Part shown: positions 50,449 through 55,837 of the stretch, one piece after another
How positions within the stretch are numbered: position 1 is the first letter of the stretch
Layout: the number at the start of each line of letters is the position of its first letter
Source: Gemmatimonadaceae bacterium
GTDB taxonomy: Bacteria; Gemmatimonadota; Gemmatimonadetes; Gemmatimonadales; Gemmatimonadaceae
Reading direction: 5' to 3'
Length of the DNA stretch: 64,000 bases
Assembly: GCA_016742275.1 (NCBI GenBank)
Contig: JACVCD010000007.1
Coordinates: 1 to 64,000 of the forward strand
Program-made: the position numbers and the translations under genes
The notes under the pieces: generated by a model
The model's input: the letters and a program-made list of their open reading frames with translations, nothing else
Databases searched by the model: none
What the model was told of the DNA's origin: nothing

Positions 50449-51257
50449 CAGAGACCCTCGTCAGCAGTATCAGCAATGGCGTAAGTGCCATTGGACGCAC
50501 CACACGTCAGCTGGTGCAGCCGGTTGGCACTGGTGCCCGCTTCACCGCCGACGTTATGCGCGCGGCGCGCGAAGTCCGCGAATGGGTACCCGAATTCTCC
50601 ACGCATGCAGTGACGCTCGGTGTTGGTTCACTGCCCATCGGCATCTTCATTGCCCTGTTCACCGGTATCGTGCTGGCGCTGCTCGCCAGCTACAGTGTCG
50701 GTGATCTCGTGCCCCCGTACTTCGTTGGCACGTTAGTGCAAAAGACCGTCATCCTTGAGCTCGCACCGGTTTTGACTGGTCTCGCACTCGCCGGTCGTGT
50801 GGGTGCCAACATTGCGGCCGAGTTGGGCACGATGCGGGTGACAGAACAGATTGATGCGCTCGAGACACTCACGTTCGATCCCATGAGCTATCTCGTCGTA
50901 CCTCGAGTGGCAGCGGCCACCATCATGTTCCCGATTGTCGTGGGCATGGCGATGCTGGTGGGGCTGCTGTCGGGATGGATGGCATCATTGGCATTGCTCG
51001 ATCTTTCAACGCCACAGTTTCTCAAGGGCGTGCGCATCTTCTTTCAGACATTCGATGTGCAGTATGGACTGGTCAAATCGGCCAGCTTTGGTGCCGCCGT
51101 GGCACTCATCGGATGTCGCGCCGGTCTCACCACCATGGGTGGTGCGCAAGGTGTAGGAAAGAGTGCCACACGCGCCGTGGTCATTTCTGCCGTCATGATT
51201 CTCGTGCTCGATGCATTCTGGGCCCTTGTGTGGCTCACCAACCGCTCTCTGCGATAA
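50445..51257 (+). CDS. MlaE-family ABC lipid transporter permease
   Basis: Inner-membrane permease of 270 residues, as in the Mla/MCE systems that move phospholipids between the inner and outer membranes. MlaE signature segments: GVGSLPIGIFIALFTGIVLALLASYSVGD, VQKTVILELAPVLTGLALAGRVGANIAAELGTMRVTEQIDALETLTFDPMSYLVVPRV, YGLVKSASFGAAVALIGCRAGL. Five or six transmembrane segments. Starts within the stop of the MgtC-family gene; the MCE protein follows 10 bp downstream. The ATPase subunit (MlaF) that usually sits between permease and MCE protein is absent here. Confidence 0.93.
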   Translation: MTETLVSSISNGVSAIGRTTRQLVQPVGTGARFTADVMRAAREVREWVPEFSTHAVTLGVGSLPIGIFIALFTGIVLALLASYSVGDLVPPYFVGTLVQKTVILELAPVLTGLALAGRVGANIAAELGTMRVTEQIDALETLTFDPMSYLVVPRVAAATIMFPIVVGMAMLVGLLSGWMASLALLDLSTPQFLKGVRIFFQTFDVQYGLVKSASFGAAVALIGCRAGLTTMGGAQGVGKSATRAVVISAVMILVLDAFWALVWLTNRSLR

Positions 51258-51267
51258 TCGCCTTTCG

Positions 51268-52293
51268 ATGACGACTTCTCCACGCGCTGCAAAACGCGCC
51301 AGCGACTTCGTAGTCGGCCTCACCGTACTCGTGGTGACGGCGGTGCTCATTGGCGGGACCCTCTGGCTCAAACAAGCCGATCTCGGAGGACGCACGCGCC
51401 AACTCACCGTGCGCTCCCGCGATGTTGGTGGTGTGGCACTCGGCAATCCGGTGGTCATTCGCGGTGTGCGGGCTGGTCGCGTCGAAGCCATTGCCTTGGG
51501 TAGCGACAACTGGGTTGTGCTCAAACTCGGTATCGACCGCACGGTCGATCTCCCGGCCGATCCGGTCGTACTGCTCGCTGCATCGAGCTTGTTTGGCGAG
51601 TGGCAGGCCACCGTTACCAGTCGCGATGGTGTGCCAAACGATCGAGAGTTGCGGGCAGCCATCGCCGAAGCGCGCTCGTCGAGCGACACTCTGGCCGGTG
51701 CCGTATTGCCCGATATCGCACAGCTCACGGCGGTGGCCGGTCGCATTTCCGGCGACGTGGCCAAAGTCGCGGAGCGTGTGCAGGTGGCGTTTGATGACGA
51801 CGCCGCGCGCGAGTTGCGTCAGTCCATTCGCAATGTGGCGGAGTTGTCGACGGAGCTTGCCCGCACGATCAAGACGCAGTCGAAGAATCTTGATCGCATC
51901 AGCACCGATGTGCAGTCCGGTCTGGAAACGGTCAACACGGCCGCATTCAAACTGAACGCCTTCTCCGCTCGACTCGATTCAGCCACCAGTCGCGGCGAAG
52001 TTCAAGCCATCGTGGGAAACACGCAGCACGCCGCCAAGGAATTGGCCGCCACCACGGCCTCGCTGCGAGAGATCACACAGCGACTGGACAAGGCAGAGAC
52101 ACAGCTGTCACGCGCCGTGGCGCGCGCAGATACCGTGTTTGCCAAGGCCAACAGCCGCGACGGTACAATGGGTCTCCTGCTCAACGACCCCGCGCTCTAT
52201 CAGCAGAGCGATTCGTTGGTACGTGAACTGCGCGTGCTGATTGCGGACATCAAGAAAAACCCGCGACGGTACGTCAACCTGCGGGTGTTCTAG
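51268..52293 (+). CDS. MlaD/MCE-domain lipid-binding protein
   Basis: Periplasmic MCE protein of 341 residues anchored by one N-terminal helix (FVVGLTVLVVTAVLIGGTLWL). The MCE domain is at about 40-115 (LTVRSRDVGGVALGNPVVIRGVRAGRVEAIALG). A long helical region follows (about 130-310) that would line a hydrophobic channel in the hexamer. The C-terminal LVRELRVLIADIKKNPRRYVNLRVF is conserved in many relatives, and a decayed second copy lies 1 kb downstream. The last codons contain an inverted repeat that may also terminate transcription. It overlaps the convergent hydrolase gene by 20 bp. Confidence 0.92.
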   Translation: MTTSPRAAKRASDFVVGLTVLVVTAVLIGGTLWLKQADLGGRTRQLTVRSRDVGGVALGNPVVIRGVRAGRVEAIALGSDNWVVLKLGIDRTVDLPADPVVLLAASSLFGEWQATVTSRDGVPNDRELRAAIAEARSSSDTLAGAVLPDIAQLTAVAGRISGDVAKVAERVQVAFDDDAARELRQSIRNVAELSTELARTIKTQSKNLDRISTDVQSGLETVNTAAFKLNAFSARLDSATSRGEVQAIVGNTQHAAKELAATTASLREITQRLDKAETQLSRAVARADTVFAKANSRDGTMGLLLNDPALYQQSDSLVRELRVLIADIKKNPRRYVNLRVF

Positions 52294-53212
52294 GCCCGCT
52301 TACGTGTTTGTCCGGTCGAGTGCGAACGATGGCGGCCGCCCAATCAACGATGAGTGCTGTAACCGCAGGATCAAACTCGTTTGGATCCAGGTTGATGAAT
52401 GCATGGCCCCGTTCCGGGAGCCGGACAAGCTTGACCCTCGTATTTCCGTTCTCGCGGAGTACGGATGCAATGCGATCCGCATGCCAGGCCGGCACGCTGT
52501 AGTCCTGTTCTCCCTGCAGAAGCAGTACAGGTTGAACGACCCGGGCATATATGGGCGAGGGATCCAGGGTCAGAAACAGTCGATACCATGGATCCAAACG
52601 CAACCGTTCTCGATGTATTGATTGCTGCTCCTCGGTGGTCTCGCCACCAAGCCGCTGGAACGCAGCCCACTGATCCTGCATCACCTGACTACCAGGTGTG
52701 GCGGGAGCTGCGAGCAGCACGAGCCCGGCAATACGATTTGAGGAGACCGCCGCCATTGATGCGATCAGCCCACCCTCGCTGTGGCCGATCAGCAGGAATT
52801 CCGTTGCCTCAAATTTCTGATGCGACCTAAGCGTAGTGAGTACATCGGCGAGATCGTCTGCCAGCGTGGTACTCGTGGCATACTCTCGGTAGGAACCACC
52901 AGACAAACCGGTTCCCACTTCATCATATCGAAAACTGGCGATCCCGATGCGCAACAAGCCGTTCTCGATTTTTTCAAAGGCACGGTTATTGACCCCGTCC
53001 ACAGTCGAGTAGTTGCGAGTCTGCGGACCAGCGCCGCTTACAAATACCGCGACTGGCCCACGACGCAACCCAGTGGGGATAGAAAATGTACCCGCCAGAA
53101 CGTGGCCCGCTCGAGTAGGTGCGCGTACCTCAATTCGCTCAACGTTCTCATGTGAAATGGGATCGCCGCTTTGAAGGGAAAGCGACAGAGCCATGACGGC
53201 GGATATGAACAT
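52274..53212 (-). CDS. Alpha/beta hydrolase (esterase/acylhydrolase type)
   Basis: Protein of 312 residues with a short hydrophobic N-terminus (MFISAVMALSLSL) that may be a weak signal. Hydrolase triad: Ser145 (LLIGHSEGGLIAS), Asp237 (LLQGEQDYSVP) and His270 (ERGHAFINLD); the oxyanion region is VAVFVSGAGPQTRN. The A/T content is higher than in the neighbours. Its 3' end reads through the mlaD tail on the opposite strand (20-bp overlap). It is the only gene between mlaD and a decayed mlaD 3' end, so it looks like an acquired islet. Substrate unknown. Confidence 0.85.
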   Translation of the reverse strand: MFISAVMALSLSLQSGDPISHENVERIEVRAPTRAGHVLAGTFSIPTGLRRGPVAVFVSGAGPQTRNYSTVDGVNNRAFEKIENGLLRIGIASFRYDEVGTGLSGGSYREYATSTTLADDLADVLTTLRSHQKFEATEFLLIGHSEGGLIASMAAVSSNRIAGLVLLAAPATPGSQVMQDQWAAFQRLGGETTEEQQSIHRERLRLDPWYRLFLTLDPSPIYARVVQPVLLLQGEQDYSVPAWHADRIASVLRENGNTRVKLVRLPERGHAFINLDPNEFDPAVTALIVDWAAAIVRTRPDKHVSGPRTPAG

Positions 53213-53236
53213 TTGCTGAAATGTGAAGTTGATTTC

Positions 53237-53306
53237 GAGTTACATGTACTGATTCTGGCCATCAAAAAGGAACCCGCGACGTTATATCAACGTGCGGGTC
53301 TTTTGA
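53237..53306 (+). pseudogene. Decayed second mlaD 3' end
   Basis: Codons 53237-53269 read ELHVLILAIKK, aligned with ELRVLIADIKK of the intact mlaD; after one extra base at 53270, 53271-53306 read NPRRYINVRVF followed by TGA, against NPRRYVNLRVF and TAG. Most differences are at third positions and the copy is A/T-richer, so it derives from a diverged mlaD rather than a recent duplication. Upstream sequence cannot be aligned with confidence. Confidence 0.7.
53272..53304 (+). terminator. Terminator within the mlaD remnant
   Basis: ACCCGC (53272-53277) pairs with GCGGGT (53294-53299); inner ACGTT/AACGT extends the stem. TTTT follows at 53301-53304. The intact mlaD end has a comparable stem with different inner pairs (GACG/CGTC), i.e. 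the hairpin is kept by compensating changes. Confidence 0.6.
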
Positions 53307-53308
53307 TC

Positions 53309-53338
53309 CAACTCAGAACTCGAAGCTCACAACTCAGA
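53309..53338. repeat. Word array E: AACTC words
   Basis: AACTC at 53310, 53317 and 53331 (spacing 7 and 14), the first and last within AACTCAGAA and the middle as AACTCGAA. Short, but it matches the spacing of array D. Confidence 0.4.
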
Positions 53339-54260
53339 ATCGCTTTTCCGGCACCGCCAGCACACTCACCCGCGCCGTGCGCATCACCTTGGTCGCTACC
53401 GACCCTACCATCAGGCGTTCGTAGAACGAGTGCCGCTGGGTGCCCACCGCAATGAGCTCCGCATTCACCTGCTGCGCATAGGCCAAGAGCGCCGGCGCCG
53501 GATCGCCACGCAGCGTGACGGTCTCCACGAGCACATGCTCCGGCACATCGAGCTGTGCACGCACCTGCTCAAATAGTGGCGGCAGCGTGCGACCATAATC
53601 CGCATCCCACGCCTGCCAATCGCTCGATGGATGTTCGAAGCGTGGCCGCACGTGCACCAGCGTGAGTTGTCCGCCCGACGGCAGCATCTGCAGCGCCATG
53701 TGCGCCGCCTGCACACTGGCCGTACTGAAGTCGAGACCAACAACCGCTCGCACGGGTTGCGACGGGAACGTTGGTCCAACGGCAAACACCGGCACACGCG
53801 ATTCACGCAGCGTAGCCAATGTGGTTTCGGTACCGAACAGACGATCCAGCGGATTGTGTCGCCCGATGCCCATGATCAGCATCGCCGCACCTCGACGCGA
53901 GGCCTCTTCTGCCAACGTCCGCGCCGGTGAACCCACCACCACCTCAATGGGCCATGCAGGATCGCCCGACGCCGAAACCGAAACCTCGCGGCGCAAATCA
54001 TCCAGCAGATGCACGCGTCGCACTTCGTCCAGTTCTGGCGGAACCGGCAACACGTCCATGCCCGCCGCCACACCCGGTACCGGTTCGCTCACCCCGAGCA
54101 GCGAAATGCTGCCTCCATACGCGCGCGCGGCCAATCGAGCAGCGTTGAACAACGCATCGCTCGACACAGATGTGCCGTCGCTGGCGACGATGACGGATCC
54201 CCCGATCAAGGCCGGCAGGAGGGAGGAAGGACTCACGGTGGCGGACTGGAAAACAGGCAT
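53334..54260 (-). CDS. Universal stress protein with two USP domains
   Basis: Cytoplasmic protein of 308 residues with tandem UspA folds. Domain 1, about 20-160, has SVIVASDGTSVSSDALFNAARLAA and MLIMGIGRHNPLDRLFGTETTLATLRESRVPVFAV. Domain 2, about 168-305, has RAVVGLDFSTASVQAAHMAL and ELIAVGTQRHSFYERLMVGSVATKVMRTARVSVLAV. The second carries the G-x-x-x-x-x-x-x-x-x-G-S nucleotide-binding pattern most clearly, so it may bind ATP. Tandem USPs often respond to growth arrest or oxygen and nutrient stress. It is convergent with the mlaD remnant. Confidence 0.92.
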   Translation of the reverse strand: MPVFQSATVSPSSLLPALIGGSVIVASDGTSVSSDALFNAARLAARAYGGSISLLGVSEPVPGVAAGMDVLPVPPELDEVRRVHLLDDLRREVSVSASGDPAWPIEVVVGSPARTLAEEASRRGAAMLIMGIGRHNPLDRLFGTETTLATLRESRVPVFAVGPTFPSQPVRAVVGLDFSTASVQAAHMALQMLPSGGQLTLVHVRPRFEHPSSDWQAWDADYGRTLPPLFEQVRAQLDVPEHVLVETVTLRGDPAPALLAYAQQVNAELIAVGTQRHSFYERLMVGSVATKVMRTARVSVLAVPEKRF

Positions 54261-54385
54261 GAAGACACTCCGAGCGAGATAGAGGAGAGAGTCGCACGAA
54301 GCGGCTGTGTACTCTATCGGGGAGAGTGGCCCGCACCGTCAGGGAATCCCGCACATCACCATGCGGCAATGCGCGAGATGGTGAT

Positions 54386-55837
54386 TTAGAGCGCCCAGCG
54401 CATGGCGCGCGCACCGGTATCGAGCAATCGGTGCATCAGTCCGCGCTTGTTCCAGGTGGCGGCATCGATCTCGTTGCTCGATGCCACATCTTCCAGAAAA
54501 TCGTCGTGCAGTGCCTGCGCAAAGTCACGATCGAAAATCAGCACATTGCACTCCGCATTGAGCCAGAACGAACGAAAATCGAGATTCGACGAGCCCACGA
54601 GACCCACCTGATCATCCACCAGCAGGGTCTTGGCGTGCAGCGTGGCCTGCGTGTACTCGAAAATGCGCACGCCGCGAGCCATCAGCGCGCGATACGCGCC
54701 GTGCGCCGCATGTCGCACGATCGGCACATCCGTACGCTCGCTGGGCAACAGCAGCCGCACATCCACACCACGTGCGGCTGCGGCACCAAGCAACCACAAA
54801 CCACGCGACGGTGGAGCAAAGTACGGCGTCGTGATCCACAACCGCTTGCGTGCACCGCCAACCAATGCCGCTAGCACGGTGAGCATTTCGCGCTGTCCGC
54901 GACCTGGCCGCGGATCGAGCACCATCACCGCAGATTCTTCGCAAGACATTTGCGATGAACGACCATCTGTCCGGCGCACGAGACGACCACGTGTGCGATC
55001 GCGCCTGCGCCCCATGCGCATCTGAAACTGTCGCTGCAATTGCCACTGCACGCGCGCCGATAGCGCGCGCGGCGAGTACCGGCGCGGCGCGGCGACCGGC
55101 GGCAAGACCACGCCGTCCGCCCAACTCACATACTCGAGGCCGGGAAGCGGCGGCCCCTTGGCACGATCCCATCCCTCGGCGAAAACCGCCGCCAGTTCAT
55201 GCGCCACCGGGCCATGCAGCTCCGCGAACGAATCGCGCCACGCATCCTCATGACGACGAACGCTCGATCCATACTCCTCTGCGATATTCATGCCGCCGGT
55301 AAATGCAACGGAACGATCCACCACCAGCAGTTTGCGGTGATCGCGTCGTAACGCATCGAGCGGATGATGCCAGAATCGATGAAACTGACGCACCTGCACG
55401 CCACCGGCCTCGAGCTCTTCCCAATAGCGCTCACGTGTCGTGAATGAGCCGACGGCATCGGCCAGTACACACACACGCACACCACGCTTGGCGCTGGCAA
55501 TGAGTGCCGCTTTCACTGCTTCACCCAATCGATCGTCGCGCAGGATGTAGGTCTCCACCAGCACTTCATCACGCGCCGATGCAATGACTTCACCCATACG
55601 GGCAAAGGTGGCTTCGCCGTCCGCATACAGCGTCACTGGTGGGCACGGGTGCAACGGACCGCCATCGATGCGCTGCACCAACGCGCGGAATGCCGGGTCC
55701 GCAACACCATCCGCGAAATGGCGAGCTGCACTGAACGCGCGCCACGCCCGCAATTCGCGCGGCACACGATTGGCTTTGACCAACGGCGTCTCGTTTGCTT
55801 TCGCAGCTGACGTGCCGCGTGTCGACACCTCGCTCAC
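54386..55837 (-). CDS. Phospholipase-D-family cardiolipin synthase-like protein
   Basis: Protein of 483 residues with two HKD motifs: His167-x-Lys169-x4-Asp174 (DHRKLLVVDRSVAFTGGMNIAEEY) and His401-x-Lys403-x4-Asp408 (LHAKTLLVDDQVGLVGSSNLDFRSF). Spacing and context fit bacterial cardiolipin synthases of the ClsB type, which join phospholipids at the inner membrane; no N-terminal transmembrane helices are present. Between the motifs lies an unusual basic segment at about 250-300 (RMGRRRDRTRGRLVRRTDGR). Its start overlaps the stop of the upstream gene by 4 bp (ATGA). Confidence 0.9.
   Translation of the reverse strand: MSEVSTRGTSAAKANETPLVKANRVPRELRAWRAFSAARHFADGVADPAFRALVQRIDGGPLHPCPPVTLYADGEATFARMGEVIASARDEVLVETYILRDDRLGEAVKAALIASAKRGVRVCVLADAVGSFTTRERYWEELEAGGVQVRQFHRFWHHPLDALRRDHRKLLVVDRSVAFTGGMNIAEEYGSSVRRHEDAWRDSFAELHGPVAHELAAVFAEGWDRAKGPPLPGLEYVSWADGVVLPPVAAPRRYSPRALSARVQWQLQRQFQMRMGRRRDRTRGRLVRRTDGRSSQMSCEESAVMVLDPRPGRGQREMLTVLAALVGGARKRLWITTPYFAPPSRGLWLLGAAAARGVDVRLLLPSERTDVPIVRHAAHGAYRALMARGVRIFEYTQATLHAKTLLVDDQVGLVGSSNLDFRSFWLNAECNVLIFDRDFAQALHDDFLEDVASSNEIDAATWNKRGLMHRLLDTGARAMRWAL

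Follow-up and report, generated by a model that had tools for sequence, protein, structure and literature searches.

In the window, which is the whole 64-kb stretch of DNA analysed here, an intact mlaD gene is followed by a single hydrolase gene on the opposite strand, a short remnant of a second mlaD 3' end, and usp. The features of this locus are as follows.

51268..52293, + strand: mlaD, intact, coding for the MCE-family substrate-binding protein of an Mla-type lipid transporter (Pfam MlaD, 35.7 bits)
52225..52293, + strand: intact 3' end of mlaD, of which a second copy lies downstream; contains a hairpin
52274..53212, - strand: alpha/beta hydrolase gene, an intact open reading frame (ORF) and the only one between mlaD and usp (from ORF and Pfam evidence)
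52294..53236: inserted stretch of 943 nt without counterpart in relatives (from the comparison with relatives)
53237..53306, + strand: remnant, a decayed second mlaD 3' end with its own TGA stop and a strong hairpin
53334..54260, - strand: usp (universal stress protein; Pfam Usp, 137.8 bits), in the genus the resident gene next to mlaD and convergent with it

For mlaD, the Pfam MlaD score was above its cut-off, and the scores for TIGR04430 and TIGR00996 were below theirs. The remnant comprises about 23 codons, perhaps three more, and lies directly after the start of the hydrolase gene and 27 nt from the stop of usp.

The repetition of the mlaD end is genuine and goes beyond chance. Positions 52258-52289 and 53271-53302 are 84% identical over 32 nt at a distance of 1013 nt, no exact match being longer than 11 nt, and a longer alignment pairs the last 23 codons of mlaD (52225-52293) with 53237-53306, where 17 of the 66 aligned bases differ. 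The last 36 nt of mlaD showed 8 mismatches to 53271-53306, compared with 14 for the best of 100 shuffled queries, and the copy extends 33 nt further to the left of this match. The two ends terminate with different stop codons, TAG in the intact gene and TGA in the remnant, and an extra base at 53270 causes a frameshift in the remnant. A preceding sequence-only reading had described the mlaD end as recurring about 1 kb downstream with one frameshift, mostly synonymous changes and the same terminal hairpin shape; each of these points was confirmed, the hairpin being present in both ends. The search was extended to 224 kb of contig C17, consisting of the window and 160 kb more (about 5% of the genome). 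Among its 166 ORFs, mlaD was the only one whose 3' end had a same-strand repeat with fewer than 12 mismatches within 15 kb. The like arrangement at other gene ends that the reading had suggested looking for did not appear: no second displaced 3' end was found among these ORFs, and no repeated 5' gene end either.

The differences between the two mlaD ends are concentrated at third codon positions (10 of 22, compared with 7 of 44 at the other positions, namely 4 at the first and 3 at the second; Fisher one-sided p = 0.012). This excess indicates that protein selection was acting while much of the divergence accumulated. The remnant shows decay in its extra base and in the motif LRVLIADIKK, where R, A and D have changed. 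The remnant agreed with the window at 5 sites and with the sister species G001 at 4, and it stood alone at 12. When 49 placements were tried by maximum likelihood, with only 66 nt available, the G000 branch, the G001 branch and their stem were nearly equal, lying 0.4 log units apart. The remnant carries YINV, as do G001 and many members of the genus, and the intact end has YVNL. The GC3 values of the remnant, the hydrolase gene and mlaD are 0.59, 0.57 and 0.71, respectively. The third-position divergence and the three-way split with the sister species suggest that the two ends are alleles of two species, not a fresh duplicate, and by its sequence the remnant looks like the end of a third species-level lineage of the G000/G001 clade instead of a fresh self-copy.

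The last 36 nt of the remnant are closest to G021, a more distant species, with 1 mismatch (35/36 identical), followed by G001 with 6 mismatches. The left arm of the remnant is nearest to the window itself and has 16/33 mismatches to G021. This combination of a G021-like right half and a window-like left arm may reflect convergence of the hairpins. G021 was considered as donor of the remnant and not adopted, in view of the mismatched left arm and a placement that was 2.3 log units worse, a difference that does not reject it.

To compare the border between mlaD and usp, the 29 other genomes of the genus were used. An mlaD orthologue was found in 27 of them, the exceptions being G002 and G022, and its 3' end was on the contig in 26, with G011 cut by a contig end. 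In 22 of the 29 genomes (22 of the 26 with a 3' end), usp follows directly in convergent orientation with nothing in between; the gap was -4 to 297 bp in 21 loci, and G005 represents the 22nd empty site. In the other cases the contig ended before usp (G021) or usp was not present there (G007, G018 and G027). The 27 nt between the remnant and usp are similar to these gaps, and the remnant stands in the resident position of the mlaD end. The hydrolase gene was absent from the mlaD-usp site in all genus genomes examined. A further mlaD end at a distance of up to 1.5 kb was found at 0 of 28 loci besides the window, including the outgroups and one contig-end case with 138 bases, and at 0 of 63 testable loci of the named collection within up to 4 kb, where the best match had 14 mismatches. 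The named collection contains 64 mlaD loci, one of which ends inside the gene, and many of the 63 come from the same genomes as the genus set. The comparison of this interval, which had been proposed as a check, supports an insertion, and two tandem mlaD genes in relatives, the arrangement that would speak against it, occurred at none of these 28 and 63 loci.

The insert carries one gene. Its product scored above the cut-offs of Pfam Hydrolase_4, Peptidase_S9 and Abhydrolase_6, and the translation contains GHSEGG, which we take to be the nucleophile motif of serine alpha/beta hydrolases (S9/S33-like). As judged from domain and motif, the protein is a serine alpha/beta hydrolase of this S9/S33-like type; esterase EstD, the nearest NCBIfam name, was rejected with 82.5 bits against an equivalog cut-off of 600. 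The gene has a GC content of 0.569 and a GC3 of 0.572; the GC3 of window genes with orthologues in relatives is 0.61-0.78. It had been described as an A/T-richer gene lying between the two mlaD ends, and it is indeed intact and A/T-richer, but it is not limited to the space between them, its ORF sharing 20 nt with the intact mlaD end. The complementary strand of mlaD supplies the hydrolase gene with its six terminal codons and its stop, and the last residues, DKHVSGPRTPAG, extend beyond the C-terminus of the relatives shown. The left junction therefore coincides with the mlaD stop or lies immediately beyond it, and the hydrolase has borrowed its end from mlaD.

The closest relatives of the hydrolase are 38-43% identical and are located at other places in Gemmatimonadaceae genomes; most of them have 475-585 aa and include an N-terminal region missing from the window protein. 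Searches for a donor of the gene returned only family-level relatives in the 199-genome relatives set (own genome included) and in the 395 genomes of the phylum set. The search of genome contigs with peptide patterns gave 36 stretches, of which 0 were confirmed, the 43 plasmid records were all below 60% identity, and no donor was found among viral contigs. An mlaD gene facing this hydrolase was not seen in the relatives or phylum genomes, the genome contigs, the named collection or the viral contigs.

On either strand the remnant folds better than its shuffles (z -4.1 and -4.3). When equal stretches were compared, its values of -3.9 and -4.2 were lower than in any of the 29 mlaD ends examined, including that of the window (lowest -2.0 and -2.8); by plain energy, one of the 29 ends is more stable than the remnant on the + strand. 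The remnant hairpin may serve as a terminator of usp. The region has a single terminator-like site, a minus-strand hairpin with a T run in the intact mlaD end, compared with 2.1 expected in shuffles; the scan for promoters and terminators found no more sites than in shuffles and hence gives no support for a terminator. The minus-strand terminator-like hairpin in the last codons of mlaD (52264-52276) overlaps the stop codon of the hydrolase gene. No Rfam match was obtained in 51000-55000.

Tyrosine integrases were searched for in the genome, and repeats at the ends of the insert. There are 3 matches to the tyrosine integrase family PF00589 in the genome, all on other contigs and none on contig C17, which, for tyrosine integrases on this contig, agrees with the earlier statement that no integrase is present. 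The insert ends showed no near-identical att repeats, the repeat there being 84% identical over 32 nt with an extra base in one copy, and no inverted pair of at least 20 nt. Genes for ComEC and DprA are present in the genome; they are common genes and no proof of competence. A title search of the literature returned no title on natural transformation in the phylum.

Trees were constructed for two parts of mlaD. The window and G001 were grouped weakly with codons 9-140 (support 45/75) and strongly with codons 141-341 (support 100/99). As both parts pair the window with G001, mlaD displays no recombination breakpoint, and with no switch of ancestry an import could come only from within the window/G001 clade. 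A mosaic mlaD was considered and rejected: the apparent switch of the nearest relative lies in a poorly resolved stretch, the split at codon 140 showed no such switch, and the signal is an effect of conservation and saturation, with G001 closer for most window genes and fourfold sites near 0.5. In the phylogeny of both mlaD ends, also proposed earlier, the window mlaD went with G001 in both parts and the remnant fell equally by G000, G001 or their stem. The earlier claim of a resident end displaced by an incoming one holds for the remnant, which lies at the resident place by usp, but the phylogeny does not show the intact end to be an import.

Taken as sequence, the locus is somewhat more probably than not the scar of a one-sided homologous import from a close relative, with an incoming end, a displaced resident end and no integrase. 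The mlaD-hydrolase order on the left and the remnant-usp order on the right fit a donor joined into the resident. The resident order would have been mlaD followed by convergent usp, and the presumed donor fragment, from a relative of the same clade at species-level divergence, would have carried the 3' part of mlaD and then the convergent hydrolase gene. The fragment would have paired with the resident mlaD, and of two crossovers, a homologous one inside mlaD would have given the resident gene the donor's end; at its opposite end, a little beyond the start of the hydrolase gene, the fragment would have been joined without homology to the resident mlaD near the mlaD stop. Alternatively, the fragment may have circularised and then entered by a single crossover. 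If replacement ran in this direction, the last ~23 codons of the resident gene would have been stranded next to usp, decaying with a hairpin that is still strong and that may have been retained as a usp terminator.

Homology-facilitated illegitimate recombination (HFIR), or the single crossover of a circularised fragment, is the most likely form of such an import. Typical of HFIR are a microhomology of 3-10 bp at most illegitimate joints and an insert of roughly 1 kb, for which the recipient usually loses a stretch of similar length. The insert at this locus adjoins recipient homology on one side only, where mlaD is continuous on the left, and the resident end is left on the right. Its size is ~943 nt, and how much of the resident mlaD was replaced depends on the donor sequence. 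The hydrolase running past the usual C-terminus of its family into mlaD antisense, as at an untailored junction, also counts for the import, as do the presence of ComEC and DprA genes and a geometry that matches published cases. Against it stand the length of the aligned ends, 66 nt, the donor searches without a hit, the lack of a visible breakpoint in mlaD, and the mixed affinity of the remnant to G021 and to the window.

An old tandem duplication of mlaD or of its 3' part, around the split of the window lineage and G001, is unlikely but would deserve the next consideration. The copy would have remained under selection for some time; the hydrolase gene would have been inserted between the two, and all but the last codons of the copy deleted. 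Such a history needs no donor and agrees with both ends falling in the G000/G001 clade with three nearly equal placements, but it requires a duplication, an insertion and a deletion together with a loss in G001, and the relatives showed no tandem mlaD at the 28 and 63 loci above; moreover, an unselected fresh partial copy would not show the third-position excess. It is improbable that the remnant arrived together with the hydrolase gene, on a donor fragment with a stray mlaD 3' end upstream of the hydrolase and illegitimate joints on both sides. The resident position beside usp would then be chance, and an oddly arranged donor, none of which was seen, would be needed; the low GC3 shared by remnant and hydrolase gene, lower than that of mlaD, and the right half nearly identical to G021 are consistent with a joint arrival, whereas the left arm nearest to the window's clade is not.

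Genomic islands of tyrosine integrases at gene 3' ends restore the gene end and displace the old end to the far side. The locus could accordingly be read as a relic of an integrase-borne element, the intact end being attL, the remnant attR and the integrase lost, with an intact gene, an islet, a displaced end and a hairpin-like target as in gene-end integration. We regard this as very improbable, as the genome's tyrosine-integrase matches all lie on other contigs, the repeat is too diverged in identity and exact run (84%, 11 nt), and none of the relatives compared has at this place a larger element that repeats the mlaD end. The locus differs from such islands in having neither an integrase nor an identical att repeat, so that the likeness to gene-end integration drawn earlier holds for the outcome but extends to the outcome only, with no second case in 224 kb. 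It is scarcely credible that the hairpin in the last codons of mlaD at the convergent border is a preferred exchange point, where single genes would swap ends between species without integrase and the displaced hairpin would be kept as the neighbour's terminator.

The kind of event favoured here, the one-sided import, is already known and its mechanism ordinary; this is one event in one species, unusually readable. According to PMC3240628, HFIR is documented in Streptococcus pneumoniae, Acinetobacter baylyi, Pseudomonas stutzeri and E. coli, and in the system of that paper circularisation with a single crossover, which partially duplicates the anchor gene, was commoner than true HFIR. The locus resembles the recombinants described there in having about 1 kb of foreign DNA beside a homologous anchor without integrase; those arose in the laboratory under selection, whereas here we see a natural, aged scar for which no donor was found. 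One-sided events of this type are proposed in PMC5361080 for the T6SS clusters of Vibrio cholerae, with displaced 3' ends left as orphans. As with the T6SS effector 3' ends, immunity genes and orphan rhs ends treated there, the upstream anchor is conserved and the resident 3' part is shifted behind the insert. In the T6SS clusters of that account, however, the displaced parts may be of use and the arrays expand, whereas at this locus one event affected the end of a housekeeping gene and brought one unrelated hydrolase gene. Many short variable segments of E. coli, S. aureus and S. pyogenes are ascribed to illegitimate recombination, partly homology-assisted, in the sections of PMC2884548 available; these share with the present insert its shortness and freedom from mobile-element features, but that work, as far as those sections go, is an intra-species survey in which displaced gene ends are not the subject. 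The locus gives a natural record of a single unrelated gene entering a Gemmatimonas-type chromosome without mobile-element machinery, in which the displaced gene end marks the homologous versus the non-homologous side. No literature on this locus was found by title (Gemmatimonas with mlaD).

Several minor observations were made at the mlaD border in other genomes. At L005, L007, L011 and L003 (also L029 and L030), long inverted repeats occupy the short gap between mlaD and usp; they differ between species and have, by eye, arms of tens of bases. Contig C68 of G021 (L066, last 138 bases) breaks just past mlaD in tandem units CGTATACGAACCA, after which an insertion sequence may start. An extra small membrane-protein ORF lies behind mlaD in G007 (L064:10812-11258) and is missing in its close relative G018. 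The mlaD gene of G005 (L068, C2) is split into three frames, likely by sequencing errors. At L126:6007-7560, mlaD and usp are separated by a 517-aa ORF, by eye a PAS/histidine kinase with receiver domain, which indicates that the mlaD-usp border takes inserts repeatedly.
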